Translations under genes and position numbers: made by a program
Shown here: positions 32,557 through 57,992 of the stretch, piece after piece
Position numbering within the stretch: position 1 is the stretch's first letter
Layout: every line of letters begins with the position of its first letter
Origin: Pseudomonadota bacterium
GTDB taxonomy: Bacteria; Desulfobacterota; Desulfobacteria; Desulfobacterales; RPRI01
Length of the DNA: 57,992 nt
Direction: 5' to 3'
Assembly: GCA_018901125.1 (NCBI GenBank)
Contig: JAHIFE010000233.1
Coordinates: forward strand, 1-57,992
Notes under the pieces: generated by a model
What the model was told of the DNA's origin: nothing
The model's database searches: none
The model's input: the letters and a program-made list of their open reading frames with translations, nothing else

Positions 32557-33314
32557 TTTCTGAACCCGTGAGAAAATTTTGGATCATAAAGTTTTGAAAA
32601 CGCTGACTCTTTATCCTGTCCGGGAAGTATCAAAAAAACCGCCTGTCTTTTAATTTCTGCATTTTTTGTTTCAGATACAACAGATTCAAGCCGTGTTGAG
32701 ATAATCCGCTCGTCCGGCCAGCCGACACGATGGGCAATTATAACCGGAGTGTCATTCGGATATCCTCCGTCGATCAGTTCTTCAACCATTTTTTCCGGAT
32801 TTTCAGAAGACAGATAAACGGCAATGGAAGCCATATGTTTTGCAAGATATTTTAAGCGCTGGGTCTCAGGCACCGGAGTGCGTCCGCCAAGCCTGGTAAA
32901 AATTAAGGTCTGCACTGCTTCCGGCAAAGTAAAAGAGATTTTTGCAGCCGCTGCTGCTGCAAACGCCACAGTTACACCAGGAATAATTTCAAAAGCAATT
33001 CCGTCTTTGTCCAGAAGTAAAATCTGTTCTTTTATCGCCCCATAAAGTGATGGATCACCGGTATGAACCCTTGCCACTGTGCCGCCATTTCTAACCGTTT
33101 CAAGAATCATTAAATGAGTTTCATCAAGTGTCATACCTGAAGAGTCAATGATCTTAGCACTGCCTTTAACGTCTGTTATCAGTTCTTTGGGCACCAAAGA
33201 TCCGGCATAAAGTATAAGATCCGCCTCACTTATACGCTTTTGCCCTTTTACAGTAATCAGCTCCGGATCTCCGGGACCGGCACCTATAAAACTGACCGGA
33301 CATTTTTTTTCCAT
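32553..33314 (-). CDS. cbiF: Precorrin-4 C11-methyltransferase
   Basis: A 253-aa SAM-dependent methyltransferase that adds the methyl at C11. Diagnostic stretches are VSFIGAGPGDPELITVKGQ, ILYAGSLVPKEL, VARVHTGDPSLYGAIKEQ, FEIIPGVTVAFAAAA and VIIAHRVGWPDERI. Full length. It is separated from cbiET by about 100 bp of repeat-like DNA, the only sizeable gap between the biosynthetic genes. Confidence 0.94.
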   Translation of the reverse strand: MEKKCPVSFIGAGPGDPELITVKGQKRISEADLILYAGSLVPKELITDVKGSAKIIDSSGMTLDETHLMILETVRNGGTVARVHTGDPSLYGAIKEQILLLDKDGIAFEIIPGVTVAFAAAAAAKISFTLPEAVQTLIFTRLGGRTPVPETQRLKYLAKHMASIAVYLSSENPEKMVEELIDGGYPNDTPVIIAHRVGWPDERIISTRLESVVSETKNAEIKRQAVFLILPGQDKESAFSKLYDPKFSHGFRK

Positions 33315-33340
33315 ATCAATCCCCTAATAATTAATGATAT

Positions 33341-33415
33341 TAAGTGTTAAGTTTTAAGTGTCAGGTGTTAAGTAACTAATTTTAAGAACAAATAATTCCT
33401 AACACTTAACACCTA
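33341..33415. repeat. TTAAGTGT-type degenerate repeat with hairpin between cbiET and cbiF
   Basis: The stretch repeats TAAGTGTTAAGTTTTAAGTG-like words, then returns as their complement. AGGTGTTAAGT (33363-33373) and ACTTAACACCT (33404-33414) are perfect 11-bp arms. The cbiET stop codon lies at its right edge. It may be simple expansion or an mRNA stem within the operon. Confidence 0.6.
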
Positions 33416-34630
33416 ACGCTTTTTACTACTGACAATAAATACCGGATTCTGAGACTCTAAACGCATATCATCACAAAGAGGAACAGACCTTGACACCAGA
33501 ATCTGACTTATGGAAACAGGCCATCTGATATCATTTAAATATTTTATGGCACGCATCAAAGAACCTGTCAGAACCAGATGCAAAACCAGTCTTCCTCCCG
33601 GTTTAAGACGGTTTGCCGCTGCTATCAGGACACTGTCATCATGGCCCAGGCCGCCTCCTATAAAGATTCTGTCAGGATCAGGCAATGCTTGCAGACATTC
33701 CGGCATATCACCACAAACCGCATCCACGGCATATGCTCCCATTCTTACTATATTTTCCTTTATCTGCAAAACCCTTTCAGGCTCTTTCTCCACAGCAATA
33801 ACCCGCCCCTTAAATGCAAAAACAGAGGCTTCAATAGCAACCGACCCACAGCCTGCCCCAAGATCCCAGACAGTATGATCAGGCCTGATTTTTAAAGCGG
33901 CAAGACCTGCGGCGCGAACTTCTTTCTTGGTTATCAGGCCTTTTTGATGCAGATATGCATCCTCATCCATACCGGGAGTAAGAGAAATTTCAGGTTGTCC
34001 GATCCTGTCCAGAATTATAAAATTAAGCGCTGAATAAATTTTTTTCGATGCATCTTTAAGATCAAGCTCGCAAATACTTTCAGCTTCTGTACACAGATTT
34101 TCAAAGACAATCATCCGGAAAGTATCCACTCCCCGTAATAGTAATTGTTCAGCAATTTTTGCAGGGTTAAACTTTTTATCGGTAAAGACCCCTATCCTGT
34201 CATTTAAGGATAAGGAGTTTAACAGCGGCAAAAGATCACTACGGCCATGAAGAGAAACGGTAACAATATCCTTCCATGGTATTTTAAGTCTGGATGCAGC
34301 CCATTGCAGTGTGGTTATATTGGGAAAGATCTCTACGCTGTTTTTCCCAAGTTTTTTTACAAGCAGTTCGGCAATGCCGTAAAATCCGGGGTCACCGTCT
34401 GCCAGTACAACTACATCAAGTTCCTGAGAAAGAGCAGTTTTTATATTTTCAACCACTTCATTTAAGTCACCGCAAATCGGAATTATTTTGGCACCATGAC
34501 CCGCAAAATAATCCAGAAGTCTATTACCCCCCACAAGCACCTGGGCTTTTTTAATAATATCTGCCGTCTGTTTTGAAAGATCTTTCTGATTAAGCCCTGT
34601 TCCGATTATTTTCACCGGCTTCATTGTCAA
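33413..34630 (-). CDS. cbiET: Precorrin-6Y C5,15-methyltransferase (decarboxylating), CbiE-CbiT fusion
   Basis: The 405-aa protein fuses two enzymes. Residues 1 to about 205 are CbiE, with IIGTGLNQKDLSK, VLVGGNRLLDYF and VVLADGDPGFYGIAELLV. Residues about 215-405 are CbiT, a class I SAM methyltransferase with VWDLGAGCGSVAIEASVF and RIFIGGGLGHDD. It methylates C5 and C15 and decarboxylates the C12 side chain. The same fusion is called CobL in other bacteria. It overlaps cbiD by 4 bp. Confidence 0.94.
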   Translation of the reverse strand: MTMKPVKIIGTGLNQKDLSKQTADIIKKAQVLVGGNRLLDYFAGHGAKIIPICGDLNEVVENIKTALSQELDVVVLADGDPGFYGIAELLVKKLGKNSVEIFPNITTLQWAASRLKIPWKDIVTVSLHGRSDLLPLLNSLSLNDRIGVFTDKKFNPAKIAEQLLLRGVDTFRMIVFENLCTEAESICELDLKDASKKIYSALNFIILDRIGQPEISLTPGMDEDAYLHQKGLITKKEVRAAGLAALKIRPDHTVWDLGAGCGSVAIEASVFAFKGRVIAVEKEPERVLQIKENIVRMGAYAVDAVCGDMPECLQALPDPDRIFIGGGLGHDDSVLIAAANRLKPGGRLVLHLVLTGSLMRAIKYLNDIRWPVSISQILVSRSVPLCDDMRLESQNPVFIVSSKKR

Positions 34631-35730
34631 AAATTCCCCTTGCTTTGTTTTTGCATCACAATACTGCCTTCAAAATCAAAAAGATAATATGTGATATCAA
34701 TATTTGGTCCGGCAAATTTTCTGGCAGAAGCCATGGCTTTATTTGCTACAATATCTAAAATCTCATTTTTTAAACTATCCAGATTAATGATATGCAAGGC
34801 CTCTATTGAGGTATTTGCGGTCGCCACTGCTAACGCGCTGCTTTTGTTCATACCTGCGTCTATGCACCATTGTGATAATTTTTCAAGATTCATACGGCAA
34901 TATTTTGCGTGCGTATTTGAAAACCCCTGAGCCATTTTAACAAGCTTTCCGAAAAAGCAGGAGTAATTGATTTCTGTAAAACCCCTTTTTGCCGCGGCTT
35001 TTAAAGAAAAGGCAAAAAAATCCGCTACCTGAATAAATGAGTTTTCGGGCAGTTCCGTTTTTATTTGCCTTAAATATCTTTCGCTCTTACCTCCGGTTGA
35101 AAGAGATATAACGTTAGCATTTGAAGCTTTCGCCACATCCATTGATATGGTGATAGTGTCTTTATAGGCGTCATTTGAAAACGGCTTAACAGTACCTCTT
35201 GTTCCCAGTATGGAAATACCTCCAATAATGCCAAGCCGCGGGTTTAAAGTCTTTTTTGCAATCTGTTCACCATTATCCACTTCTATAAGTACAGACACCG
35301 ACTTTTTTATACCGCATTGCTGCAAACCTTCCTTTACAGCAGCTTCTATCTGCCAGAGCGGCGCAGGATTGATGGCTGCCTTACCAATAGCAACCGGCAA
35401 CCCCAAACGGGTAACTCTTCCCACTCCCTTGCCGCCTTCAATGATAATGCCTGCTTTTATATTCTCTATCCATTTAACAGTAACTATGATTTGAGCCTTA
35501 TGAGTTACATCAGGGTCATCGCCTCCGTCTTTTATTACCGTGGCTCTTGCTATCTCGCCAGGCAATATTTCGACTGATTCCACAGGCACCTTCAATCTTC
35601 CGCCTATCGGAAGCGCAATTTCCACCTCCCGGACACAAGCTTGGCCTGAAAGCAGCAAAACAGCCGCCTTTGCACCGGCTGCAGCAGTCGATCCTGTGGT
35701 AAATCCTTCACGAAGCCGCTCTCTTTTCAT
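34627..35730 (-). CDS. cbiD: Cobalt-precorrin-5B (C1)-methyltransferase
   Basis: A 367-aa protein with the signature N-terminus LREGFTTGSTAAAGAKAA, GDDPDVTHKA, GGKGVGRVTRLGLPVAIGKAAINP and ILGTRGTVKPFSNDA. It adds the C1 methyl group, the step replaced by CobF in aerobic synthesis, so it marks the anaerobic route. Full length. The cbiC stop codon lies 1 bp away upstream. Confidence 0.94.
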   Translation of the reverse strand: MKRERLREGFTTGSTAAAGAKAAVLLLSGQACVREVEIALPIGGRLKVPVESVEILPGEIARATVIKDGGDDPDVTHKAQIIVTVKWIENIKAGIIIEGGKGVGRVTRLGLPVAIGKAAINPAPLWQIEAAVKEGLQQCGIKKSVSVLIEVDNGEQIAKKTLNPRLGIIGGISILGTRGTVKPFSNDAYKDTITISMDVAKASNANVISLSTGGKSERYLRQIKTELPENSFIQVADFFAFSLKAAAKRGFTEINYSCFFGKLVKMAQGFSNTHAKYCRMNLEKLSQWCIDAGMNKSSALAVATANTSIEALHIINLDSLKNEILDIVANKAMASARKFAGPNIDITYYLFDFEGSIVMQKQSKGNF

Positions 35731-35731
35731 G

Positions 35732-36388
35732 CTAATTCTTTTTTTCCTTTTTCATAAGCGCCAGTTCCGCCAACTGATTTACAACGCATGCCGCAAGAGC
35801 CGATCCTCCTTTGCGGCCTGTGATAGTAATAAACGGAACGTCTTTTTGCATGATCAGAAGTTCTTTTGATTCAGCTGCATTTACAAATCCCACAGGCATT
35901 CCGACTATAAGAGCCGGGCGGCATTTGTTTTCATTAACAAGCTGTAACAATCTGATCAGTGCTGTTGGAGCGTTTCCAACAACATATATGCCTCCATCAA
36001 GATATGGCAGCGAATAATCCAGTGCAGCTGACGCCCTTGTTGTTTTTTTGGCTAAAGCATTTTCTTTAACCTGCTCATTATTTATAAAGCACTCAGGGTG
36101 GCAGGACAGCCGGTTCATACGGCCTGAGGTTATTCCCATTCGCGCCATCTCGGTATCTGTTACAATCGTACAGCCTGAAAGAAGAGCCTCTATACCCTTA
36201 GTAACAGCATCGGGATGAAAGCAAAGCAGAGAAAGAAGCTCAAAATCGGCTGATGTGTGTACCAGTCTTCTTGCAATCTTCCACTCATCATTTTGAAAAG
36301 GCCTGGGTTCGGGTACTTCCGAGTCAATAATTGCAAAAGATTTCTTTTCGATATCTTCAGGATTAATACCAGCTCCAAGGTTTATCAT
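35732..36388 (-). CDS. cbiC: Precorrin-8X methylmutase
   Basis: A 218-aa enzyme that moves the methyl from C11 to C12 to give cobyrinate. Visible are RRLVHTSADFE with the catalytic-type His44, IVTDTEMARMGITSGRM, GNAPTALIRLL and PALIVGMPVGFVNAAESKE. The start overlaps the end of cbiL by 4 bp. Nothing unusual. Confidence 0.94.
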   Translation of the reverse strand: MINLGAGINPEDIEKKSFAIIDSEVPEPRPFQNDEWKIARRLVHTSADFELLSLLCFHPDAVTKGIEALLSGCTIVTDTEMARMGITSGRMNRLSCHPECFINNEQVKENALAKKTTRASAALDYSLPYLDGGIYVVGNAPTALIRLLQLVNENKCRPALIVGMPVGFVNAAESKELLIMQKDVPFITITGRKGGSALAACVVNQLAELALMKKEKKN

Positions 36389-37143
36389 AGTTCCTGATCC
36401 TTTCCTGTATGATTACCGGCATTTGAATTTTTTACAAGCAGTAATGAAAAATAAGAAGGAATCTCATCCTGATATTTTCCTATATCTTCAAGCACAACCT
36501 CATCTTTGAGTCCGCATCGTGATATCAACATGGATTTTGATATCATATCATGCTTCTTAAGATTGTTTATAATTTCCTTATAATTACGGTACACTTTAAG
36601 TATTACTACACATGCATTATTATTTATAACCTCAGTTATTTTTTCCGAACCGGCCGCTCCTGATATCACAGTAAAAGATTCATCACCTTCTGCCAGGATC
36701 TGCTTTGATGCTGCGGCTGCCGCCTGGAAGGAAGTAATACCCGGAATAATGCATATTTCGATTTCGGGTTTTATTTCCTTTACTATTTTCATAATATAGC
36801 CGAAAGTGCTGTAAGTCATAGGGTCACCCAAGGTCAACACCGCAGCATCCTTGCCATCTTTTAACGTTTCCATGATTTTTTCGGCATTTTGCTTCCATAC
36901 AGCCTCAAGGATATTTCTATCCTTTGTCATCGGAAAATCAAGCTTTTCTACAGGTGTACCTTCTTTTAAATGAGGCGAAGCAATATCTTGTGCAAGCGAG
37001 TAATTATTCTTTGTTGAAGCAGCGGTGTATACCACATCAACACAATGAAGCGTTTTTACCGCCTTTACGGTAATTAAATCCGGATCTCCGGGTCCAACAC
37101 CGATACCGTATAATATTCCGTATTTCGAAGTATTCATTCTCAT
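36385..37143 (-). CDS. cbiL: Precorrin-2 C20-methyltransferase
   Basis: A 252-aa SAM-dependent methyltransferase: LYGIGVGPGDPDLITVKAVKTL, DVVYTAAS, AAVLTLGDPMTYSTFGYIM, IEICIIPGITSFQAAAAAS. It methylates C20 of cobalt-precorrin-2 directly after CbiK, whose gene precedes it with a 4-bp overlap. Standard length. Confidence 0.92.
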   Translation of the reverse strand: MRMNTSKYGILYGIGVGPGDPDLITVKAVKTLHCVDVVYTAASTKNNYSLAQDIASPHLKEGTPVEKLDFPMTKDRNILEAVWKQNAEKIMETLKDGKDAAVLTLGDPMTYSTFGYIMKIVKEIKPEIEICIIPGITSFQAAAAASKQILAEGDESFTVISGAAGSEKITEVINNNACVVILKVYRNYKEIINNLKKHDMISKSMLISRCGLKDEVVLEDIGKYQDEIPSYFSLLLVKNSNAGNHTGKDQEL

Positions 37144-37925
37144 ATCCTTTCAGGCATCATATCAGGTATCACACGCAGGGCATCTTCTATATGCCTTATA
37201 AATAAATTAATAATATTTTCATTCATTCCAAGGCCATTAGCATCAGCCGTAACACAAATGCCTTCCTGTTCAAATGCAGTTTTCCATGAGTCTTCTTCCC
37301 CGATAAGATCTTCCTGGAAATGAGTTCCGGCAACCAGCATAAAAGGAATAAGACGCACTTTTTTAAAACCTGAATCCTTAACACGATCAATAATTTCCGA
37401 CCTTTCAGGAAATCCTTCCACAACACCTATATAAATTTTTCGTCCGATTTTTTTTTGCAGCATATGTTGCAAAGCCAGATAGGATGACCAGACAGGGTGA
37501 TCAGTCCCGTGTCCTACAAGTACTACAGCTTCCTCATTATTACCGTTAAAACTGTTTCTGCAATTTTCCGACATAAGCTCATAATCTTCAGGTTCCGTTA
37601 ATAACGGCAGGCCTATGGATGTTCTTATTTTGCAATTTTCAGCTTCCTGAACCATGCGGTAAAATTCATGGCCGCAGAACAGATGCAAAGACTGCACAAC
37701 AGCCCATAAATGCCCCTCAGATGATAGCCTGGTCAATATTTCATGAGGATGTTTAAGATCTATATTTCTTCTTTTTTTTATCCAGTCTTTAACCATCCTT
37801 GAAGAATATGCCCATAATATCTCGTGATCCTTAAACCGGGCAGCAAGCTTCTCATTCATAAAATCATATGTTTCAAGCGCTTTTGTTGTTGTTCCGAATG
37901 CCGTCATAACAATAGGTGTTTTCAT
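37140..37925 (-). CDS. cbiK: Sirohydrochlorin cobaltochelatase, CbiK type
   Basis: The 261-aa protein inserts Co(II) into sirohydrochlorin, committing it to cobalamin. The CbiK signature is clear: PIVMTAFGTTTKALETYDFM, the HLFCGHEFYRM segment, VVLVGHGTDHPVW and IPFMLVAGTHFQEDLIG, the latter two carrying the metal-binding His of the family. No signal peptide is present, so this is the cytoplasmic form rather than the periplasmic CbiK-P known from Desulfovibrio. It lies between cobalt transport and corrin genes, with 4-bp overlaps on both sides. Confidence 0.94.
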   Translation of the reverse strand: MKTPIVMTAFGTTTKALETYDFMNEKLAARFKDHEILWAYSSRMVKDWIKKRRNIDLKHPHEILTRLSSEGHLWAVVQSLHLFCGHEFYRMVQEAENCKIRTSIGLPLLTEPEDYELMSENCRNSFNGNNEEAVVLVGHGTDHPVWSSYLALQHMLQKKIGRKIYIGVVEGFPERSEIIDRVKDSGFKKVRLIPFMLVAGTHFQEDLIGEEDSWKTAFEQEGICVTADANGLGMNENIINLFIRHIEDALRVIPDMMPERI

Positions 37926-38770
37926 GATCTGCTTTCCATTGCTTTTATTATATCTCTTCTGGCTTCGCCGATTGTCAGCGGAATGCGCCCAAACTGCAAG
38001 CCGTCTTCATTCTTCAGTTTATAAACAAGCTCAGCTATCATGGGCAATCTGAGCTTTACTTCCGACATTTCTTCAGGAGCTGTAAATACCTCCTCGGGTA
38101 TTCCGCTTCTTACAATCCGGCCGGAGCTTAATATATAAAGTTTGGACAAAAATAACGGGACAAGATCCACGCTATGTGTGGCCATTACTATTGTAACGCT
38201 GTTTTCCCGGTTAAGTTTTTTTAAAAGACTCATCATTTTATATTCGCCCATCGGATCAAGGCCTGCTGTGGGTTCATCCAGCAGCAATATTTCATGGCCC
38301 ATGGCAAGAAGCCCTGCTATACATGCTCTTTTTTTCTGGCCGTAACTTAAGTTGTGAATGGATTTCTTCTCAAGGCCGTCAAGTTCTACATCTTTCAATG
38401 CGCAAAGAACACGATCCTTAACTTCAGCAATATTTAACCCCATATTTATCGGGCCAAATGCTATATCATCAAATAGCGTTGCAGCAAAAAGCTGATCATC
38501 CGGGTTTTGGAAAACAAGGCCTATCTTTTGATATATCATTTTAGGGGTAAGCTTTTTAATGTTTTTACCATCAAGACGAACTTTGCCGTGTGATCCTTTC
38601 AATAGCCCGTCCATTATTTTAAGCAGCGTTGTTTTTCCCGATCCATTGGAACCGAGTATTGCTGCAAACTCTCCTTTTTTGATTTCAATACTGATATCGG
38701 AAAGAGCTTTTGTTCCATCAGGATATATTAACGACACATCTTTTACAGAAAGCCTTACATGATTTTCCAT
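37922..38770 (-). CDS. cbiO: Cobalt ECF transporter ATPase
   Basis: A 282-aa ABC ATPase with Walker A GSNGSGKTTLL, Q-loop GLVFQNPDDQLF, signature LSYGQKKR, Walker B ILLLDEPTAGLDP and the switch His in MATHSVD. It powers cobalt uptake with CbiQ and CbiM. It overlaps cbiQ by 16 bp and cbiK by 4 bp. Confidence 0.93.
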   Translation of the reverse strand: MENHVRLSVKDVSLIYPDGTKALSDISIEIKKGEFAAILGSNGSGKTTLLKIMDGLLKGSHGKVRLDGKNIKKLTPKMIYQKIGLVFQNPDDQLFAATLFDDIAFGPINMGLNIAEVKDRVLCALKDVELDGLEKKSIHNLSYGQKKRACIAGLLAMGHEILLLDEPTAGLDPMGEYKMMSLLKKLNRENSVTIVMATHSVDLVPLFLSKLYILSSGRIVRSGIPEEVFTAPEEMSEVKLRLPMIAELVYKLKNEDGLQFGRIPLTIGEARRDIIKAMESRS

Positions 38771-39510
38771 AGCACTCCGGCTGCAAAAATTATAACTACT
38801 GCTATCGCCACTTCATTTATTTTAAAAGAAGCACTATGGCCTACAGGCATATTTCCGGTGTATCCTCTTTGAAACATTGCCTGGGTCGTTATCTGGCTGC
38901 GATCAAAAGCTCTTATTATAAGTTCACCCGAAAGCGTTCCGAAAGAACTTAAGCCTGACCGGATACTGGAATAACCGAGTCTGTTTTTTTGTGCATTATA
39001 TATAACGCCCGCATCTTCAAAAAGAACAAATATGTACCTGTAGGTAATCATCAGTAAATCTACAAACTGCGAAGGAATTTTAAACCAAGAAAGACCTGTA
39101 ATAATATCTGTAAAAGGAGAAGAAAATCCGGCAAGTGCAATAAGCGAAACAGCTCCTATAATGCGGCTTGAAAGCCTTATGCCTTCCATCAGGCCGTCTT
39201 TGTAACCTACGATGTCAATCCCTGCGATACTTACACAAAACAAAGGTTCGTGGCCGGTAAAAAAGAATTTTAAAAAAAGAAGCATAGCGGCTATGAATAG
39301 TGGCTCTGAAAATCTGATAAGCATAACGCGAGACGGTATATCAATAAATTTGCAAAGTACTATGCAGAGCATAGCTATAAACAAAGGAAATATTATTCCA
39401 TTGCTGCATAAAACCATAACAAGCAGTGAAAACGTTAATATAAGCTTGATTCTAACATCAACTCTTGTGAGAAGATTATTGTTTTTATAATATTCGTCAA
39501 ATAAATGCAT
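38755..39510 (-). CDS. cbiQ: Cobalt ECF transporter transmembrane (T) component
   Basis: A 251-aa integral membrane protein with five to six hydrophobic helices. The T-component motif is near ELIIRAFDRSQITTQAMFQRGY, the Ala-Arg-Gly-type coupling helices that contact the ATPase. The N-terminus VDVRIKLILTFSLLVMVLCSN is typical. It links CbiO to the cobalt-specific CbiM. A 118-bp repeat-bearing gap separates it from the CbiN-like gene. Confidence 0.9.
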   Translation of the reverse strand: MHLFDEYYKNNNLLTRVDVRIKLILTFSLLVMVLCSNGIIFPLFIAMLCIVLCKFIDIPSRVMLIRFSEPLFIAAMLLFLKFFFTGHEPLFCVSIAGIDIVGYKDGLMEGIRLSSRIIGAVSLIALAGFSSPFTDIITGLSWFKIPSQFVDLLMITYRYIFVLFEDAGVIYNAQKNRLGYSSIRSGLSSFGTLSGELIIRAFDRSQITTQAMFQRGYTGNMPVGHSASFKINEVAIAVVIIFAAGVLWKIM

Positions 39511-39540
39511 ATTGGTTTTTATTTAAAATACTTTTTATTA

Positions 39541-39590
39541 GTCCTTCATTACGAGGATTCCAGGGTTCAAGAGTTCAAGGGTTCCAGTGA
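39541..39590. repeat. GGTTCMAGRGTTC-type simple repeat
   Basis: Short words like CCAGGGTTCAAGAGTTCAAGG repeat imperfectly in the gap between cbiQ and the CbiN-like gene. A much longer relative lies at 54578-54718. Confidence 0.5.
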
Positions 39591-39628
39591 AATCTCGTTT
39601 ATATATGAAATTGAACTGAAATCTTCGC

Positions 39629-39940
39629 TTAGAGGCTATGGGTTTCCTTCCGGTCTCCCGGTGGCATAATAAGCATTCTCCAGTAATATCCGCCGATAAA
39701 TCCGCCAATCGTACCCGCCAGAAGAAATACAAATAAAAGCAGGTCTCCCTGATCCGTATTTATGAAAGGCTCGCTTGATTCCCGGCCATGCTCTTTTGCG
39801 TATTTTTCCACTACGGATTCATCAACACCCGGCCACTTTTCCGAACTATAAACAAACGGCTGAAAGCAATAAAATACAATTGCAGATAAAACAAAGATCA
39901 TAACCATTTTGATCATAATTTTACTTTTTTCAGGCTTCAT
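39629..39940 (-). CDS. CbiN-like small membrane component of the cobalt transporter
   Basis: A 103-aa protein with two membrane helices (about 9-28 and 68-90). Between them is a soluble loop starting WPGVDESVVEKYAKEHG, reminiscent of the PDGLE/CbiN-type accessory subunits of Co/Ni transporters. It overlaps the 3' end of cbiM by 11 bp and precedes cbiQ and cbiO, exactly where cbiN sits in other operons. True CbiN identity is an inference from topology and position. Confidence 0.7.
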   Translation of the reverse strand: MKPEKSKIMIKMVMIFVLSAIVFYCFQPFVYSSEKWPGVDESVVEKYAKEHGRESSEPFINTDQGDLLLFVFLLAGTIGGFIGGYYWRMLIMPPGDRKETHSL

Positions 39941-40733
39941 TGGCTACACCTCCCACCGATTTAATCACTTTCATCTTTATGAGTAAATCAGGTCTCTTCT
40001 TATACAGCAATACGACCATTCCGCCGGTGATGGCTCCTTCAAGTATTCCAAGAGGAAGCTGAGTAGGAACAAAAGCTATAATTATTTTTGTGAAAAGCGG
40101 CATAAAAGGTGAACCTCCCATTATACCTGAGGCCAGTTCAACTGAAGTGGAAAGATATGTAGCCCAGTCTGCTATTAATCCTGCTACAAACCCTGCTGCA
40201 AAAAGGTTTGTATTAAATCCGCGTAAGGTTTTAAAAGTAATATACCCGGCAAAAGAGCCCATTATGCCCATAGAAACTATATTTGCGCCAAGTGTGCTTA
40301 ATCCGCCGTGCGCAAGAAAAAGAGCCTGAATAAAAAGGGCCACTGCTGCTACAAGAACGCTTAAGCCCGGACCAAGCAGTATTGCAGATATTCCGGTTCC
40401 GCATGGATGCGAACATGTGCCGGCTGTAGGAACAGGCATGGGCATGCAAGAGATGATAAATACAACTGCAGCTACAAGACCGACAAGCGGCTTGAAGGAA
40501 GGATCAATACTGGAAAGCTTTTTCAGTTTATATAAGCCATATGCTACAAATGGCGCAGCGACAACAAACCATAACACCGCCCAGTTGAAAGGCAATATTC
40601 CTTCTGATATATGCATTGCATAAGCATTACCTGAAAGCATCAAAAAGATAAAAGCCGACAATACAAAAAAATGAATTTTAAAATTATTTAACGCTGTACA
40701 GGCTGTTTTAAATACAGTTTTCTTCATAAGCAT
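39930..40733 (-). CDS. cbiM: Cobalt ECF transporter substrate-binding (S) component
   Basis: A 267-aa membrane protein. After a signal-like N-terminus (to GNAYA) comes MHISEGILP, the conserved mature N-terminus whose Met-His-(Ile) positions bind the metal ion. Other marks are PVPTAGTCSHPCGTGISAIL and LAHGGLSTLGANIVSMGI. It is the first gene of the operon, directly after the riboswitch and terminator, so cobalt import as well as synthesis is under cobalamin control. Confidence 0.94.
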   Translation of the reverse strand: MLMKKTVFKTACTALNNFKIHFFVLSAFIFLMLSGNAYAMHISEGILPFNWAVLWFVVAAPFVAYGLYKLKKLSSIDPSFKPLVGLVAAVVFIISCMPMPVPTAGTCSHPCGTGISAILLGPGLSVLVAAVALFIQALFLAHGGLSTLGANIVSMGIMGSFAGYITFKTLRGFNTNLFAAGFVAGLIADWATYLSTSVELASGIMGGSPFMPLFTKIIIAFVPTQLPLGILEGAITGGMVVLLYKKRPDLLIKMKVIKSVGGVANEA

Positions 40734-40815: not shown

Positions 40816-40874
40816 AATCCCATTATTTTCCTCATGATCATAAACGCGCTCTCTTGTCCTCGGAGAACACACAA

Positions 40875-41104
40875 AATATTCAGGCAGGTCTTCTGACTCT
40901 CGGATCAACCATTCGGCTGCGCCTTCCCATCACGGTTACGCGTGAAAGTGGCATTTTGCAGCTTTTGTCCCCGATTACAGCGGCGGGCCCGTCCCCGATT
41001 CACACGGGGTTCCCTATTCCGGCAGGATATAAAATTCCACCCTACATCTCATCCCGTAGGGCGGCATTTCACATTCCGCCATATGCTAAAAAGCACCTGA
41101 ATAT
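40875..41104 (-). promoter_or_regulatory. Cobalamin riboswitch controlling the cbi operon
   Basis: On the minus strand the leader has the cobalamin aptamer order: a P1 arm ATTCAGG near 41104, AGGGAACCCCGTGTGAATCG, ACGGGCCCGCCGCTGTAATC with the invariant CCGCTGTAA core, GGGAAGGCGCAGCC, and the B12 box AGTCAGAAGACCTGCC closing with CCTGAAT near 40875. An intrinsic terminator follows at 40770-40815. It should switch off cbiM through cbiH when adenosylcobalamin is plentiful. Confidence 0.95.
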
Positions 41105-49366: not shown

Positions 49367-50704
49367 TCAGATAGACTTTACTAAAGAAGCAAAATGTAAA
49401 TGCACATATGACGCCAAAGTATTTCTTACGCGAAACCCTTTGGCTTTTTCTTCAGGATTTCCTGAATAAATATTTTCCATCAGGTTTTTATCATTGCTTA
49501 TCATTTGTGAATAGTGAAAACAGTGACCGCGTATCGGAGTATCCTGTTTTAAAAAAAGAAAATCCTTTAGAGGCTTTACTTCTGTGTATCCAAGTGACTG
49601 AAGCCCTGATTTCATAACCGTACTATAGGGGAGGCATCCGCACATGGGGTATGATTGGCCGTCAACGGTAGTTAATAATTCACCCAGATACATAAGCCCG
49701 CCACATTCACCATATACGAAAGCCCCTTTTTTGCTTTGTTCAGCCACTGCTTTTCGCATGCTCTCATTTTTTGACAAAGCCTCCGCATAGAGTTCAGGAT
49801 ATCCGCCACCGAAATAGTAGGCATCCACATCCTCCGGCAGTGTAGTATCATCTGTGGGGCTGAAAAAAACAATTTCATATCCAAGATTTTTAAGGATCTC
49901 AAAATTATCTTCATAATAGAAGCAAAAGGCTTTGTCTCTGGCAATGGCAATGCGCCTGGGTTTATGTTCAGACAAAATATTTGATGGAGATGAAAACAAA
50001 TCCGTATGTTTTATATCCATATCGGAAAGTAAAAGTATTTTTTCAATATCCACATTTTTTGATACGGTATCTGAAAGGATTTTTATTTTATCTTTATCAA
50101 GGATTCCGTCTTCTCCCATGTAAAGACCAAGATGCCTTGAGGGAATATCAATATCATTATTTTTGGGAATACAACCAAGTGCCGGAATACTGCAATATGT
50201 GCTTACAGCTTTTTCTAATATTTCATAATGCTTTAAACTTCCCACATTGTTAAACACAACACCGATTATATTGACAGTTGGATCGAAATCAACAAGACCG
50301 TTTACTATTGCTGCCGCAGTCCGGGCTATAGAGTTTGCATTAACAACAAGCACTACCGGAACTTTAAGCCATGCCGCAAGTTCGGCTGTAGAACCCTGGG
50401 ATGAATCAGGAAGCCTTCCGTCATGGATACCCATAACTCCTTCAATTACGGAAATGTCTGCTTTTGCTGCACGTGATTGAAAAGAACGCTTTAAAAAATC
50501 TATAAGCATCATCCACGTATCAAGATTTATAGAAGGTTTACCGGTAATTATTTTATGGAGACTGGGATCAATATAATCAGGCCCGCTCTTAAAGCCACAA
50601 ACATCAAGCCCCATATTTTTAAGAGCCGCTATCAGCCCCAAAGTGAGAGTGGTTTTACCCGAACCGCTGGAAGCACCTGCTATAAGCACTGCTTTTCTTT
50701 TCAT
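49367..50704 (-). CDS. cbiA: Cobyrinate a,c-diamide synthase
   Basis: A 445-aa glutamine- and ATP-dependent amidase. The N-terminal P-loop is LIAGASSGSGKTTLTLGLIAAL, with FKSGPDYIDPSLH and IEGVMGIHDGR. The C-terminal triad-type glutamine amidotransferase carries AYYFGGGYPELYAEAL and YGECGGLMYLGE with the nucleophile Cys. It amidates the a and c side chains after corrin formation. It is in the uptake operon, away from cbiM-cbiH, where it may also serve salvaged cobyrinate. The 292-bp gap to hsdR holds nothing I can support. Confidence 0.94.
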   Translation of the reverse strand: MKRKAVLIAGASSGSGKTTLTLGLIAALKNMGLDVCGFKSGPDYIDPSLHKIITGKPSINLDTWMMLIDFLKRSFQSRAAKADISVIEGVMGIHDGRLPDSSQGSTAELAAWLKVPVVLVVNANSIARTAAAIVNGLVDFDPTVNIIGVVFNNVGSLKHYEILEKAVSTYCSIPALGCIPKNNDIDIPSRHLGLYMGEDGILDKDKIKILSDTVSKNVDIEKILLLSDMDIKHTDLFSSPSNILSEHKPRRIAIARDKAFCFYYEDNFEILKNLGYEIVFFSPTDDTTLPEDVDAYYFGGGYPELYAEALSKNESMRKAVAEQSKKGAFVYGECGGLMYLGELLTTVDGQSYPMCGCLPYSTVMKSGLQSLGYTEVKPLKDFLFLKQDTPIRGHCFHYSQMISNDKNLMENIYSGNPEEKAKGFRVRNTLASYVHLHFASLVKSI

Positions 50705-50996: not shown

Positions 50997-51707
50997 TTAC
51001 TTCAACTCAAATCTTATAGGCACTCTTACCCACATTGCAACTTTGCTGTTTCCTTTCATACCGGGTTCGAAGAACCAATTCTTAACTGTGGTCAGCGCCG
51101 CATTATCCAGTATGCTATACCCGCTTGAAGTAAACAGCTTCAAATTTTTAACCCGGCCGTTTTCATCAACAAGAACACTTAATACCACTACGCCCTGATA
51201 TCCTCTTCTTCTTGCTATCCGCGGATATGCGGGTGGAGGATTGGTTTTATACAAAGGAAACGCTTCCCGTGTGACTGTCATGGCTGCATTATCAGCAAGG
51301 CTGCTATGCTTTTCTACTACCTTTTGATCCGACACCACTTCAGGATCACCCTTCTCGGATGTATCTGCTTTTTGATTTTCCAAAGGATAAGATGTTATTT
51401 CAGTATCAGGTATTCTTACAGTCTCTTCAGGTTTGACTTCCGCCTTTACCGGAACAGGCAACGGAGGCTTCTGCTTTTCAGGCTTTATTAATTTCTTTTC
51501 CTGTTTTGTTTTCTGTTGCTTAACAGGCTCCTTTATTATATTTTTTACTACAGGCATTGGAGAAGGCTGACGATAAGAAATTGTGACGTTAACAGCTTTT
51601 GCTTTCGGTAATATAATAGTTTTATTAATAAACCATTTAAAATTAATAGCCGCCAATCCGGCATGAAACATTAACGCCAGTATTGTGGCAACCAGCAGGC
51701 GCTTCAT
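50997..51707 (-). CDS. tonB: TonB energy-transducing protein
   Basis: A 236-aa protein: N-terminal membrane anchor (about 1-22), a Pro/Lys/Glu-rich periplasm-spanning linker (about 55-110), and a C-terminal TonB domain with PPPAYPRIARRRGYQGVVVLSVLVDENGRV and AALTTVKNWFFEP. It passes energy from ExbBD to outer-membrane receptors, presumably the BtuB-type receptor at the head of this operon. It directly abuts exbD (stop and start adjacent). Confidence 0.93.
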   Translation of the reverse strand: MKRLLVATILALMFHAGLAAINFKWFINKTIILPKAKAVNVTISYRQPSPMPVVKNIIKEPVKQQKTKQEKKLIKPEKQKPPLPVPVKAEVKPEETVRIPDTEITSYPLENQKADTSEKGDPEVVSDQKVVEKHSSLADNAAMTVTREAFPLYKTNPPPAYPRIARRRGYQGVVVLSVLVDENGRVKNLKLFTSSGYSILDNAALTTVKNWFFEPGMKGNSKVAMWVRVPIRFELK

Positions 51708-52112
51708 CTATTTTTCCGCCTCCGCCTGGAGAGAAATATGATTCAGTCCTGCCAATCTGATCCTGTCAAGAACCTTGAACAGATTCTGATATGATATGCT
51801 TTTGTCTGCAAATAAAAGTACTCCCGGATCAGTATGTCCTTTGGACAGATTTAAAAGGGTAGCCGTCAAGTCTTCAAGCAATACCTGTTGTTTGTCTACA
51901 TAAATACTGCCTTCAGCTGTAATTGTAACCGACAGGACTAATTGTTTATCAGTCTTTGCGACAGATGATTTCGGAAGACAGACAGGCAAGCCCTTGTGAA
52001 CAGCCATAGAAAGAGTTGCATAAATAAATGTGACCAGAACCAGAAAAACTATATCAATGAGTGGGATCATTTCGATCCTGCTTTTACGCAAGGATGCTTT
52101 TTTGACCTTCAT
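51708..52112 (-). CDS. exbD: ExbD biopolymer transport protein
   Basis: A 134-aa protein with a single N-terminal membrane helix. The motif MIPLIDIVFLVLVTFIYAT carries the essential proton-channel Asp. A periplasmic domain follows (DPGVLLFADKSISYQNLFKVLDRI). Its start overlaps the exbB stop by 4 bp. Confidence 0.93.
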   Translation of the reverse strand: MKVKKASLRKSRIEMIPLIDIVFLVLVTFIYATLSMAVHKGLPVCLPKSSVAKTDKQLVLSVTITAEGSIYVDKQQVLLEDLTATLLNLSKGHTDPGVLLFADKSISYQNLFKVLDRIRLAGLNHISLQAEAEK

Positions 52113-52744
52113 TTCTGATTTCCTTTATCAAGTCCCGGCTGCGCCAAAACAATTTTTTCATAAACAATTTCAAAACTTGTTGCGTACTTTTCAATTATCT
52201 GGCCGGCACGCTCAATACAGGAATTAAAGTAATTATAACAAAAGACCGAAGGTATAGCGATAGAAAGACCGGCAGCGGTTGTAATTAAAGCTTCTGCAAT
52301 TCCTCCTGTAACCGCTTGAGGGTTATCAAGCCCACCTGCTCCAAGTATTTCAAAAGATTTTATGATTCCTGTAACAGTTCCCAAAATACCAAGAAGAGGC
52401 GCTACCGTAATTATAGTATCAAGTACTCCCATATATCTGCTCATACGCCGCATTTCTTCTGCTGCTGCAGATTCCATTGCTTTGGTAAGAGAATATTCAC
52501 GATGAAGAATCCCGCTTACTAAAACTCTTACAACATAATTATGCGAACCGGCAGACCTTTGTCTTACCGCTTCCCAATCGCCTTTACGGCAAAGGTCGAG
52601 AACATCGTTTACAAGCTCCCTGTTTCTGCGCATACCAATACCAATCCAGAAAATGGAGCGCTCAATAATAATCGCCATAGAAATTATCGAACATAACAAA
52701 AGCGGATACATAACAGGTCCGCCGCTTTTAAAAACTTCCAGCAT
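52109..52744 (-). CDS. exbB: ExbB/TolQ-family proton channel protein
   Basis: From the ATG at 52744 the product is 211 aa; a TTG at 52762 would add six residues. It has three membrane helices with the family segments PVMYPLLLCSIISMAIIIERSIFW, MGVLDTIITVAPLLGILGTVTGIIKSF and ALITTAAGLSIAIPSVFCYNYF (all quoted in part). It forms the motor with ExbD. It lies 4 bp after btuD, so TonB energisation is encoded in the same transcript as import. Confidence 0.92.
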   Translation of the reverse strand: MLEVFKSGGPVMYPLLLCSIISMAIIIERSIFWIGIGMRRNRELVNDVLDLCRKGDWEAVRQRSAGSHNYVVRVLVSGILHREYSLTKAMESAAAEEMRRMSRYMGVLDTIITVAPLLGILGTVTGIIKSFEILGAGGLDNPQAVTGGIAEALITTAAGLSIAIPSVFCYNYFNSCIERAGQIIEKYATSFEIVYEKIVLAQPGLDKGNQK

Positions 52745-52748
52745 AACT

Positions 52749-53570
52749 TCACCTCTTGTCAATTAACTTATTATTCACATCAAAATACTTTCGCGGCACT
52801 GGCGTGAGTCTTGGAACTTTTCCAAGAGGGCTTTCATCCACCAGAATCTTACACCCGTATACCTCCTCCAACACCTTATAGGTAAGAACGGTTTCAGGCT
52901 TCCCAATGCTTATAATATTTCCTGATTTGAGCAAAAGCAGCGTATCGGAATACATGGCGGCAAGATTTATATCATGTGACACCATAACAACTGTGAGCCC
53001 TTTCATCTCCACTAGCTTTTCCATAAGATCCATGATGTTAATCTGATGGGAAAGATCAAGGGATGCAGTAGGCTCATCCAGAAGAATAATACCGGTCTGT
53101 TGACATACTGCTCTTGCGATAAAAACCAGTTGCCTTTCTCCACCGCTTAATTGATCCAGTTTGCGTAAAGAAAGATGTTCCGCACCTGTAAAAGCAAGGG
53201 ACTGTTCTGCAATTTCAAAATCCTCTTTTTCAGGAAGACCTAAAATTCCAAGATAGGGAGAACGCCCCATAAGAACCAGTTCCTTAACAGTAAAAGGAAA
53301 ATCCGTGGGCACATTTTGAGGAACAAGCGCAATGGATCTTGCAAGAGACTTTCTGGAAAAATCATTAATATTCCGGCCAAATATTTTAATTGCTCCCTCA
53401 TCGATTTTCAAATTACCGGATATGGTTTTAAGCAAACTCGTCTTTCCCGAACCATTAGGGCCGATAATAATAAACAGCCCACCGGATTTTACTGAAAAAC
53501 TGATATCTTTCAGAACAGTATTTTCCCCATAGGCACAACTTAGCCCGCTTATATCAATTGCATTACTCAT
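52749..53570 (-). CDS. btuD: Vitamin B12-type ABC transporter ATPase
   Basis: A 273-aa ABC ATPase of the FecE/BtuD group: Walker A GPNGSGKTSLLKT, Q-loop ALVPQNVPTDFPFTV, signature LSGGERQLVFIARA, Walker B IILLDEPTASLDL and switch His VMVSHDINLAA. I chose the ATG at 53570, which overlaps the btuC stop by 4 bp and begins MSNAIDISGLSCAYG. A longer frame to 53714 lies inside btuC. Neighbours btuB, btuF and cbiA point to corrinoids as the substrate. Confidence 0.88.
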   Translation of the reverse strand: MSNAIDISGLSCAYGENTVLKDISFSVKSGGLFIIIGPNGSGKTSLLKTISGNLKIDEGAIKIFGRNINDFSRKSLARSIALVPQNVPTDFPFTVKELVLMGRSPYLGILGLPEKEDFEIAEQSLAFTGAEHLSLRKLDQLSGGERQLVFIARAVCQQTGIILLDEPTASLDLSHQINIMDLMEKLVEMKGLTVVMVSHDINLAAMYSDTLLLLKSGNIISIGKPETVLTYKVLEEVYGCKILVDESPLGKVPRLTPVPRKYFDVNNKLIDKR

Positions 53571-54577
53571 CGCGTGGACCTTTTGAGCAGAAATATAAAC
53601 AGCGGTGCGCCTATCATTGCGGTAATAACTCCTACCGGCATTTCTCCCTGCTGCGGAAGACTCCTTGCCAGCAAATCGCAAAGCACCATATATGATCCTC
53701 CGGCAAGTACACAAGCCGGCACCAGTATACGGTGATCAGATCCGAAAGTTAAACGCAAAAGATGAGGCATTACAAGACCCACAAAGCCCAAAAGACCACA
53801 ATTAGCGACAGTGGCACTTACCATAAGAGAAGTTGTTATCAACAGCGTAATAGTTACCGCTTTGATGTTTACTCCCATAGACTGGGCCATTTCTTTTCCC
53901 AAAAGCATAAGATTCATGGAATTTGAAAAAATAAAGATGATTGCAAAACATGGCAGAAGTATCAATGCAAGATATCCGACATGCCGCATCTCAATCATGG
54001 ACAGATCACCCATCAGCCAGAACATGATATTATGAATTTTTGAATCATGCGCCATTGATATGAGAAACATAATCACAGCTGCGCAGAATGCATTAATTAT
54101 AACTCCTGATAGAAGCAAAGAGTCTTTTTTTAAAATTGACTGGCCTGAAGACATGACAAGAATTAATACAAGTATAATAATACTTCCTGAAAATGCTAAA
54201 AAACTGACACCCGGAAAAAGTGACAGCCCGGCAAGGATGCCGATAATGGCTCCTATTGCTGAACCCCCGGAAATACCCAAAATATAAGGCTCCGCCAGAG
54301 GATTTCGTAAAAGTGCCTGAAACACAAGCCCGCCCAAAGAAAGGGTTGATCCTACCAGCACAGCCATAAGCACTCTCGGAAAACGAATCCGCCAGATGAT
54401 TGTATTTAACATTGAATCAGCGGCGGTTTGACCCATAACTGAATTCCATACCCATTTAAATCCTCCTCCAGTGGAACCCAGGGAAATCCCGGCAAAAACA
54501 CAGGCAAGCAATAATACAAATAAAAGCAGAGACAGCAGTAAAAGTCTTTTAGTAATATAATGAGGTGCGGTTTTCAT
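53567..54577 (-). CDS. btuC: Vitamin B12-type ABC transporter permease
   Basis: A 336-aa FecCD-family permease with about ten membrane helices. Family stretches are RFPRVLMAVLVGSTLSLGGLVFQALLRNPLAEPYILGISGGSAIGA (in parts), MGVNIKAVTITLLITTSLMV and GLVMPHLLRLTFGSDHR. The ATG at 54577 starts MKTAPHYITKRLLLL. A GTG at 54631 would add 18 residues that are coded by a simple repeat, and I consider that extension non-native. The substrate is inferred from context. Confidence 0.88.
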   Translation of the reverse strand: MKTAPHYITKRLLLLSLLLFVLLLACVFAGISLGSTGGGFKWVWNSVMGQTAADSMLNTIIWRIRFPRVLMAVLVGSTLSLGGLVFQALLRNPLAEPYILGISGGSAIGAIIGILAGLSLFPGVSFLAFSGSIIILVLILVMSSGQSILKKDSLLLSGVIINAFCAAVIMFLISMAHDSKIHNIMFWLMGDLSMIEMRHVGYLALILLPCFAIIFIFSNSMNLMLLGKEMAQSMGVNIKAVTITLLITTSLMVSATVANCGLLGFVGLVMPHLLRLTFGSDHRILVPACVLAGGSYMVLCDLLARSLPQQGEMPVGVITAMIGAPLFIFLLKRSTR

Positions 54578-54718
54578 GGGCTTGTGGTTCCAAGGTTCAT
54601 GGTTTATAGGTTCACAGTTCCAAGGGTTCACAGTTCACGGTTGATTGCCTTGAGATCTTCTAAGTTTTCAATTTTCATAACTTAACCGTGAACCCTAAAA
54701 CCTTGAACCCTAATGTTT
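54578..54718. repeat. GGTTCA/TGAACC simple repeat between btuF and btuC
   Basis: Words such as GGTTCCAAGGTTCATGG and CAGTTCACGG repeat, then appear in complement as AACCGTGAACC and CCTTGAACCC, so the stretch can fold on itself. Relatives are at 39541-39590. It fills the 132-bp gap between btuF and btuC and can be read as spurious N-terminal codons of btuC. Confidence 0.65.
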
Positions 54719-55771: not shown

Positions 55772-57811
55772 TCATTCTGATGAACCGCTCTTTCTTGCAT
55801 GAATACCGTTTAACAATGAATTTAAAGCCATATCAACAACAACAGGCAAATCTATTCCGGCAAGATAATCCTTATCTTCAGTTATTTTATGTCCGGCGAT
55901 TTCTTCTTCCACCTGCTTGCACCATAATTCATAAGAACTCAGATCATTAATAAGGCCTTTTTCATAATCATCACTTAAAGCAAAAGATGCTTTTATAAAA
56001 GAAGCATAACGGGGTTGCAGCAAAAGATCTTCGAATTCGCCTACCATACCGGATTCTCCGGAGCTGCATTCACATCCGTATGCAGTAAGTATCTCAAACA
56101 CACTTAAGTTTCTGTCTCGCAATCTCGAAAAAACATTACGATCTGCAACCATTCCATTTTGCTTATATATTGCTTCATAAACTCCCTCATAAACTGCTTT
56201 TGCGATTAATTCACCCAGTTTGGTATGACCTCCGGCATTTTTCAATTCCTTTCCGGAACCCCCTACAACCAGAATGTTATCCGTACCTGTTCCTGTGGCC
56301 TGATTAGCAATAGGAGTATAAGTACTTCTCGCATCAAGATCCTGCATAACAGCACTCTTGGCTTCTGTAGCCGAGATGATAGCTCTTGTCATGGCCCTTG
56401 GAGTAAGCTTCATATTTGTTAAAATTATGATATTTATTGTTCCCGGTTCATAAAACATGCCTTCATCCACCGACATCCGCATAGCATTTGATTTCACACC
56501 TGCAGTTACCAGAGCATAGACAACCATATCTTTAAATTCTTTGCGTTTAACCGCCAGATTGTCCATATCCGCTCCGGTGAAGAGAAAACTTGAGTCTTTT
56601 AATGATTTTCCAATGACTTTATAAACATGATCCCGTTGCACCTCAAAACCTTCATCATGCCCTATATTCCAGCAAGGCGGAGGAGAATAATGATTGCCAA
56701 CTGTTTTTATCCCATTACGCTGGCCTTCAAGTGTCGAAACTACAGAAAGCGGTTTTTTAAATTCCACTACCAGTGTCTTGTTATCAAAATCATAAATTTT
56801 GCTGTAATCAATATGTATATCTTTTATATAATCCAAATCCACATCGATTTTTTTTGATTTAAAAACCTTTTCTTCCAATACAAATTTTGAAGCATCGGAA
56901 AACTCTTCGCCGTAAATTCTTGCAGAAAGCCATGAAACAAAATATCCCGAATTTACGGAAGCCCTGCAAGTCAATTCACAGGGAAAATTGTAAATCCTAT
57001 GGTTTTTTACCGCATCCACATCTTTCCAGCCCGGCTCATTAAACATTCCCTCAGCTTTTTTTGTGTCGCCGCCACAGCCATAAATTACCTGGGGGTTGAA
57101 TTTGATCCATTCCTCTTTAGTAACAGATACTATTTTTCCCTTTTTATTAAGTACAGGAGCAATACCTCCTGCAAGACGTATAAGCTCGTTTTGAAACGAA
57201 TCATCCCCGGGAGTCATTATTGTATCTTTTCCCATAAGCCTTATTACTCTTTGTTTCTTTGATTCAGGAATTCGGCCTGTTTTTTTTGAGATAAGCTCAA
57301 ATTCTTCTTTGATTTGTCCTACAATCTTTTTTGCTTCATCTTCTTTATTAAAAATTTTACCCAATGTATAAATCACATCAAAGGAGTCTAATACGGAATC
57401 GTGCTCAAGATTGATCAATAAGCATTTCTTATCTTTAAATTTTTCAATCACTTTTTTTTGCAACTTTGAATAGAAGATAACATCAGGATTTATCTTTTCA
57501 ATCTTATCAATAGAAGGTGAAAAGAATCCCCCAACAATCTCTTTTTTGCTTACCTCAGGAGGAGAAGTATCATAAATAGTCACAGCCTTGAGATTGTCTG
57601 ATGCACCAAGTTTAAAAATTATTTCGCTAACTGATGGAACAAGGGATACTACTGATGATGGTGTTTTATTTATATTTATTTTATTGCCGGAGTGATCGAT
57701 AAATTCGAGAGGATATGAAAACACCGATGTGGCAAAAAATAATGCAAACATAAAGCTAATAACAACTAATTTATATTTTATCATCCGAACACGTTTATAT
57801 AAGTTAATCAA
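55772..57811 (-). CDS. Exported BtuF-CbiZ fusion: corrinoid-binding domain plus adenosylcobinamide amidohydrolase
   Basis: The 679-aa protein starts with a signal peptide (RMIKYKLVVISFMFALFF, cut near VFS). Residues about 35-315 are a BtuF-type binding domain: FIDHSGNKININKTPSSVVSLVPSVSEIIF (in parts), VGGFFSPSIDKIEKINPDVI and NELIRLAGGIAPVL. Residues about 355-550 match CbiZ amidohydrolases: KTVGNHYSPPPCWNIGHDEGF, TAGVKSNAMRMSVDEG, NIIILTNMKLTPRAMTRAI, SATEAKSAVMQDLDARS, QATGTGTDNILVVGG and TKLGELIAKAVYEGVYEA. CbiZ removes the lower-ligand side chain of (pseudo)cobinamides for remodelling. The last 120 residues are unassigned. A TTG at 57811 follows GGAAGG; an ATG at 57784 is possible. Confidence 0.85.
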   Translation of the reverse strand: MINLYKRVRMIKYKLVVISFMFALFFATSVFSYPLEFIDHSGNKININKTPSSVVSLVPSVSEIIFKLGASDNLKAVTIYDTSPPEVSKKEIVGGFFSPSIDKIEKINPDVIFYSKLQKKVIEKFKDKKCLLINLEHDSVLDSFDVIYTLGKIFNKEDEAKKIVGQIKEEFELISKKTGRIPESKKQRVIRLMGKDTIMTPGDDSFQNELIRLAGGIAPVLNKKGKIVSVTKEEWIKFNPQVIYGCGGDTKKAEGMFNEPGWKDVDAVKNHRIYNFPCELTCRASVNSGYFVSWLSARIYGEEFSDASKFVLEEKVFKSKKIDVDLDYIKDIHIDYSKIYDFDNKTLVVEFKKPLSVVSTLEGQRNGIKTVGNHYSPPPCWNIGHDEGFEVQRDHVYKVIGKSLKDSSFLFTGADMDNLAVKRKEFKDMVVYALVTAGVKSNAMRMSVDEGMFYEPGTINIIILTNMKLTPRAMTRAIISATEAKSAVMQDLDARSTYTPIANQATGTGTDNILVVGGSGKELKNAGGHTKLGELIAKAVYEGVYEAIYKQNGMVADRNVFSRLRDRNLSVFEILTAYGCECSSGESGMVGEFEDLLLQPRYASFIKASFALSDDYEKGLINDLSSYELWCKQVEEEIAGHKITEDKDYLAGIDLPVVVDMALNSLLNGIHARKSGSSE

Positions 57812-57828: not shown

Positions 57829-57992
57829 CTAAAATCTAACTTTCACACCGGCATAGCCTGAAAGACCGGGCTTGGCATAACTCCAGGCTTCTTCGTAATA
57901 TTCGTCAAAAAGATTGTCAACTCGGCCATAAACTTGGAAATGATCATTGATATCATAAGACGCTGAAACATTGACCAGCGTATATGAATCGA
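57829..57992 (-). CDS. btuB: TonB-dependent outer-membrane receptor, C-terminal end (cut by window edge)
   Basis: Only the last 54 codons are inside the window. They read DSYTLVNVSASYDINDHFQ, then VYGRVDNLFDEYYEEAWSYA, and end GYAGVKVRF-stop. Alternating beta strands, the NLFDxxY motif and the terminal Phe are the standard end of TonB-dependent receptors. Its place at the head of a btuFCD-exbBD-tonB operon suggests BtuB (corrinoid uptake); this is inferred from context. The stop codon is 17 bp before the next gene's start. Confidence 0.8.
   Translation of the reverse strand, partial: DSYTLVNVSASYDINDHFQVYGRVDNLFDEYYEEAWSYAKPGLSGYAGVKVRF

Follow-up and report, generated by a model that had tools for sequence, protein, structure and literature searches.

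The present analysis confirmed, in a sulfate-reducer-type bacterium, a BtuF-CbiZ fusion protein that probably acts as an exported, corrinoid-capturing amidohydrolase, freeing cobyric acid for import by a separate BtuFCD system and rebuilding in the cytoplasm. Export, activity, substrate range and the order of these steps are what we infer from the gene, its neighbours and its relatives. Within the window, i.e. the whole stretch of DNA that was analysed (57,992 nucleotides), the fusion and its parts map as follows:

55772..57811, minus strand: BtuF-CbiZ fusion gene, 679 aa, TTG start
57716..57811, minus strand: signal-peptide-like N-terminus, residues 1-32 (MINLYKRVRMIKYKLVVISFMFALFFATSVFS), by a hydrophobicity heuristic
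56984..57652, minus strand: BtuF-type substrate-binding domain, residues 54-276, containing C246 and the docking positions D102 and E233
56180..56764, minus strand: CbiZ amidohydrolase domain, residues 350-544
56438..56440, minus strand: codon of T458 in the invariant GTIN motif, candidate nucleophile
55775..56158, minus strand: C-terminal helical domain, residues 552-679, with an LtrC/YpjQ-like fold in the model and tentatively CbiS/CobZ-like

A GGAAGG box lies ahead of the TTG start, and codon 10 is an ATG. The frame, its length, the minus strand and the Pfam matches all agree with the initial annotation, which had read an export-type N-terminus, a BtuF-type domain and a CbiZ domain in one 679-aa frame. 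Specifically, Peripla_BP_2 matched residues 54-276 (E 4.1e-25; 89 bits against a cut-off of 27.5), and the CbiZ profile (PF01955), expected at residues 355-550, was found at 350-544 (E 2.6e-52; 178 bits against a cut-off of 27) over profile positions 1-191 of 191. The fusion is the sole CbiZ copy in the host genome. It is not an assembly artefact, since 14 further genomes of the order encode full-length orthologues (44-88% identity) and a contig scan found the fusion at at least 80 loci (the best 80 of 297 stretches encoding relatives). Carriers among the loci listed are Desulfonema magnum 4be13, strain NaphS2 and Desulfospira joergensenii, besides single MAGs labelled Nitrospirae and Mariprofundaceae.

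Far from being an oddity, the BtuF-CbiZ fusion is the form that CbiZ usually takes in the host's order. CbiZ was detected in 101 of 241 genomes of the order, and 91 of the 117 matches lay in fusion-sized frames (640 aa or more; 53 of 91 matches phylum-wide), with frame length serving as a proxy for fusion and the shorter frames including contig-end fragments. The unfused CbiZ proteins found alongside measure 388-406 aa or about 235 aa. Eight genomes of the order encode the long form (one as a 295-aa frame), six of which also hold a fusion-sized frame, and this suggests separate roles. In a phylogenetic tree, the branch of fused CbiZ domains was supported at 100/99; as one Dehalococcoides sequence with a very long branch falls inside it, a single origin of the fused domain is not proved. 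Two loci (L057 and L091) each encode two different BtuF-CbiZ fusions, 39-42% and 51-59% identical to that of the window.

As the initial annotation had stated, CbiZ is otherwise known as a salvage enzyme of the cytoplasm or joined to an ATPase of the BtuD type (e.g. the 489-aa protein of Cytobacillus). Characterised CbiZ proteins are treated as cytoplasmic, and their best-studied substrates are adenosylated; adenosylation of corrinoids being cytoplasmic, an exported CbiZ must accept whatever corrinoid form arrives. The N-terminus of the window protein runs from a K/R-rich start into the stretch LVVISFMFALFF (mean hydropathy 2.9) and on to SVFS-YP. By the hydrophobicity heuristic, the N-terminal stretch was the protein's most hydrophobic in 72 of 73 homologous fusions, while none of 11 unfused CbiZ proteins had a comparable one, in line with the export-type N-terminus proposed earlier. 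Although the N-terminal sequences of the fusions diverge, they retain this hydrophobic stretch after a mostly basic start. Anatomy and comparison thus make export and cleavage by the fusion protein well-supported predictions. A cytoplasmic enzyme whose N-terminus stays uncleaved or was misread would agree with the characterised CbiZ proteins, yet the retention of the stretch despite sequence divergence and a fusion partner from an extracytoplasmic domain family render this very improbable.

The genomic neighbourhood of the fusion is that of corrinoid uptake. The end of a receptor gene lies 17 bases upstream of it, and BtuF, BtuC, BtuD, ExbB, ExbD, TonB and CbiA/CobB follow downstream in this order on the same strand:

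57829..57992, minus strand: TonB-dependent receptor, C-terminal end, BtuB-like by sequence reading and cut by the contig end
54710..55735, minus strand: separate BtuF-type binding protein, both docking Glu kept
53567..54631, minus strand: BtuC-type permease (profile match)
52749..53714, minus strand: BtuD-type ATPase (profile match)
52109..52762, minus strand: ExbB (Pfam)
51708..52112, minus strand: ExbD (Pfam)
50997..51707, minus strand: TonB (Pfam)
49367..50704, minus strand: CbiA/CobB (cobyrinate a,c-diamide synthase); the genome has three

In the nearest relative (locus L112), a full TonB receptor occupies the place corresponding to the truncated one. Directly behind the operon, a gene resembling a type I restriction helicase subunit was read on the same strand (46705-49074). 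The separate btuF that the initial annotation had noted beside the fusion is indeed present at 54710-55735; an exported CbiZ does not always travel with a second btuF, a question it had raised: a BtuF lies within about 10 kb of the fusion in 24 of 38 loci and directly adjoins it in 10.

A B12-box count (11 of 63 upstream regions against 1.4 expected) gave way to Rfam searches of 29 loci, 27 of which carry a cobalamin riboswitch on the strand of the fusion and no more than 5 kb upstream. It often sits immediately before the fusion (L094, L090, L061, L059, L084, L087, L093), and in L112, L071 and L053 before the TonB receptor gene instead; no cobalamin riboswitch was found within 5 kb upstream at L057, and L043 is ambiguous, with an opposite-strand riboswitch in between. 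The riboswitch evidence comes from these relatives, the corresponding site of the window lying beyond the contig end. In L071 (7653-16015), moreover, the fusion has a TonB receptor led by a riboswitch on one side and a protein of the CobN/magnesium-chelatase type on the other, a possible link to cobalt handling. Group II intron matches occur near the corrinoid loci of L112 (16403-16559) and L071 (3668-3942), and in Desulfonema magnum (L053, 9915-9960) an Acido-Lenti-1 RNA match lies immediately ahead of the fusion.

The window also holds corrin genes of the host:

31522..40733, minus strand: de novo corrin and cobalt-uptake genes (CbiM, CbiQ, CbiO-type ATPase, CbiK, CbiC, CbiD, CbiG, tetrapyrrole methylases)
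40866..41060, minus strand: cobalamin riboswitch upstream of these genes

CbiA, CbiP, CobS and CbiB were found on contig 55 of the host genome. The host thus appears capable of producing a cobamide itself and, with CbiB, CbiP, CobS and CbiD present, could also use and rebuild cobyric acid taken up from outside. Since the sampled corrin-ring genes may make imports unneeded, one could envisage that the exported enzyme does not serve the cell's own salvage but destroys cobamides that the cell cannot use or that others want. However, the gene shares its operon with the uptake genes for BtuFCD and TonB, and the operons of its relatives stand behind a cobalamin riboswitch like nutrient uptake genes, so that we rank this reading as the least probable of all.

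Under the preferred reading, that of cleavage ahead of import, the fusion protein would be exported to the periplasm, where its N-terminal domain would capture corrinoids delivered by the TonB-dependent receptor. The CbiZ domain would then hydrolyse the amide bond to the aminopropanol (nucleotide-loop) side chain, yielding cobyric acid, which the separate BtuF would hand to BtuCD; in the cytoplasm, CbiB, CobS and their partners would rebuild it with the cell's own lower ligand.

An alternative is that cutting and transport form one step, the fused binding domain docking on BtuCD itself and passing on the cut corrinoid. BtuF of E. coli docks on BtuC via E72 and E202. At the corresponding positions the window protein has D102 and E233; as the strict pair of docking glutamates is missing, the fused domain was not filed as a transport BtuF. 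In the alignment, both glutamates were present in 30 of 31 separate BtuFs but in only 9 of 75 fused domains. Acidic residues at both positions, as in the window protein, characterise 25 of the 75, which speaks for coupling to import, and fusion and BtuCD share one operon here; on the other hand, seven fused domains are acidic at neither position, and many fusions have no btuCD match in the available flanks. We therefore consider such import-coupled channelling unlikely, albeit the most serious of the alternatives. The docking constraint on the fused domains is relaxed, which fits capture without docking, although the window protein itself might still dock. The fused domain's nearest chains in Foldseek bind iron complexes, haem or B12. 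Three cysteines, one within the domain (C246, 76 of 76 fusions) and two just past it (C278, 76 of 76; C282, 75 of 76), are nearly invariant and would fit an extracytoplasmic disulfide.

The catalytic core common to fused and unfused CbiZ is intact in the fusion. Near-invariant among 35 fused, long and short CbiZ sequences were S359, G363, N373, T412, T436, G438, N442, R445, G457-N460, E483, K485, A505-D511, H529 and E534, with N442, R445, GTIN, TE.K, ATGTGTD and H529 common to fused and unfused proteins in at least 33 of the 35; across 76 fusions, 108 alignment columns were at least 97% identical. A single exchange might point to a CbiZ domain without activity, in a protein that binds and stores or scavenges corrinoids but does not hydrolyse them: the lysine of the GKHT motif of long and short unfused CbiZ is a glycine in the fusions. 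Yet Dehalococcoides CbiZ likewise reads GGHT and the core is near-invariant in fused and unfused proteins alike, which makes this option improbable. For CbiZ, PMC3541065 gives conversion of adenosylcobinamide (or, in bacteria, pseudo-B12) to adenosylcobyric acid, and PMC7733943 covers the bond cut and the specificity.

This chemistry bears on why cbiA should be in the operon. Cobyric acid lies downstream of CbiA in the pathway and already carries the a and c amides, which leaves CbiA no work to do on it; the activity of CbiZ does not explain the presence of cbiA. While the initial annotation correctly located cbiA in the same cluster (49367-50704), its reason, namely that the fusion would release cobyrinate-type products, fails, as CbiZ makes cobyric acid instead (PMC3541065). 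Nor does an exported CbiZ always travel with cbiA, which is rare near the fusion: of the 38 loci whose downstream flank reaches 6 kb or more, tblastn found it in only two, a lower bound, since the search missed a CbiA + GATase_3 protein in the flank of L094. The host genome encodes three CbiA/CobB homologues, that of the window (49367-50704) and those on contigs 55 and 191.

How CbiZ might cut is hinted at by structure prediction. The first 250 residues of the predicted model matched NylC, ThnT, ornithine acetyltransferase and DmpA-type aminopeptidases (Z 14.1 to 11.7; best match rmsd 3.9 over 190 aligned residues), well above the unrelated entries further down the list. These types are self-cleaving amidohydrolases or acyltransferases. 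A profile of the CbiZ region found no match among PDB sequences; in hhalign against the S58 fold family, it scored 22.8, above all 60 column-shuffled decoys (maximum 18.6), with P 0.059 and a helix as the best local segment. In a longer, low-confidence profile alignment, T458 faces the Thr that follows the Asn in the NTT motif of S58. That GTIN occupies the nucleophile position of a DmpA/NylC-type fold, with T458 as the nucleophile, is thus a lead.

For the C-terminal ∼120 residues, which the initial annotation had left unassigned, Pfam gave no match; they are conserved, and a tentative assignment is now available. A single 326-column profile alignment extends to residues 552-679, which it pairs with the end of the long cytoplasmic CbiZ proteins, and the CbiS model (NF038002) matched residues 347-628, through CbiZ into the C-terminal domain (reaching residues 618 and 601 in two relatives), with a score of 86 bits against a curated cut-off of 250 that amounts to resemblance only. 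In the AlphaFold model (pLDDT 79), the domain is nearest to LtrC and YpjQ (Z 10.2 and 9.5), an arrangement that may be common among helical folds, and hhalign against PgpA proper gave no support. We tentatively regard the domain as CbiS/CobZ-like. Combining these leads, we can put forward, as a possibility rather than an expectation, that an exported lineage with three domains (binding, CbiZ and CobZ-like) cuts cobamides before import and that the CbiZ family comprises N-terminal-nucleophile-like amidohydrolases of the DmpA/NylC/ornithine-acetyltransferase fold, with T458 of GTIN as the nucleophile and possibly self-cleaving.

Cobamide remodelling is generally regarded as intracellular. That the fusion recurs in dozens of genomes related to the host's suggests removal of the side chain from foreign B12 variants on the outer side of the inner membrane, with import as the next step. 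If remodelling precedes import, any corrinoid admitted by the receptor could be taken and a foreign, perhaps harmful cobamide would be kept from the cytoplasm; the cell could also leak cobyric acid to its neighbours, and in sediments one would expect cobyric acid as a shared currency. A testable mechanism for CbiZ would follow from the fold lead, if true. In the accessible parts of the open literature searched, we found neither a description of the BtuF-CbiZ fusion, whose earlier mention in the primary CbiZ papers is possible, nor a report of CbiZ catalytic residues.

Compared with known systems, the fusion shares the full-length domain and the core motifs with CbiZ (PF01955) of Methanosarcina mazei, Rhodobacter sphaeroides and Dehalococcoides mccartyi, but differs by its export-type N-terminus and the attached binding domain, and the CbiZ domains of the fusions group apart. 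With BtuF of E. coli it has the Peripla_BP_2 profile and fold in common, whereas its docking residues are relaxed and its three nearly invariant cysteines set it apart. The long cytoplasmic CbiZ proteins of Desulfobacterota (388-406 aa) likewise combine CbiZ with a homologous C-terminal domain (326 aligned columns), yet lack both signal peptide and binding domain. CbiS, which unites CbiZ with the alpha-ribazole phosphatase CobZ, resembles the fusion through the match spanning CbiZ and the C-terminal domain; it has no binding domain, and the phosphatase function of the fusion is only putative. Finally, the BtuD-CbiZ fusions (e.g. on a Cytobacillus plasmid, 489 aa) also tie CbiZ to corrinoid import, yet their partner is a cytoplasmic ATPase, while that of the BtuF-CbiZ fusion is an extracytoplasmic binding protein.
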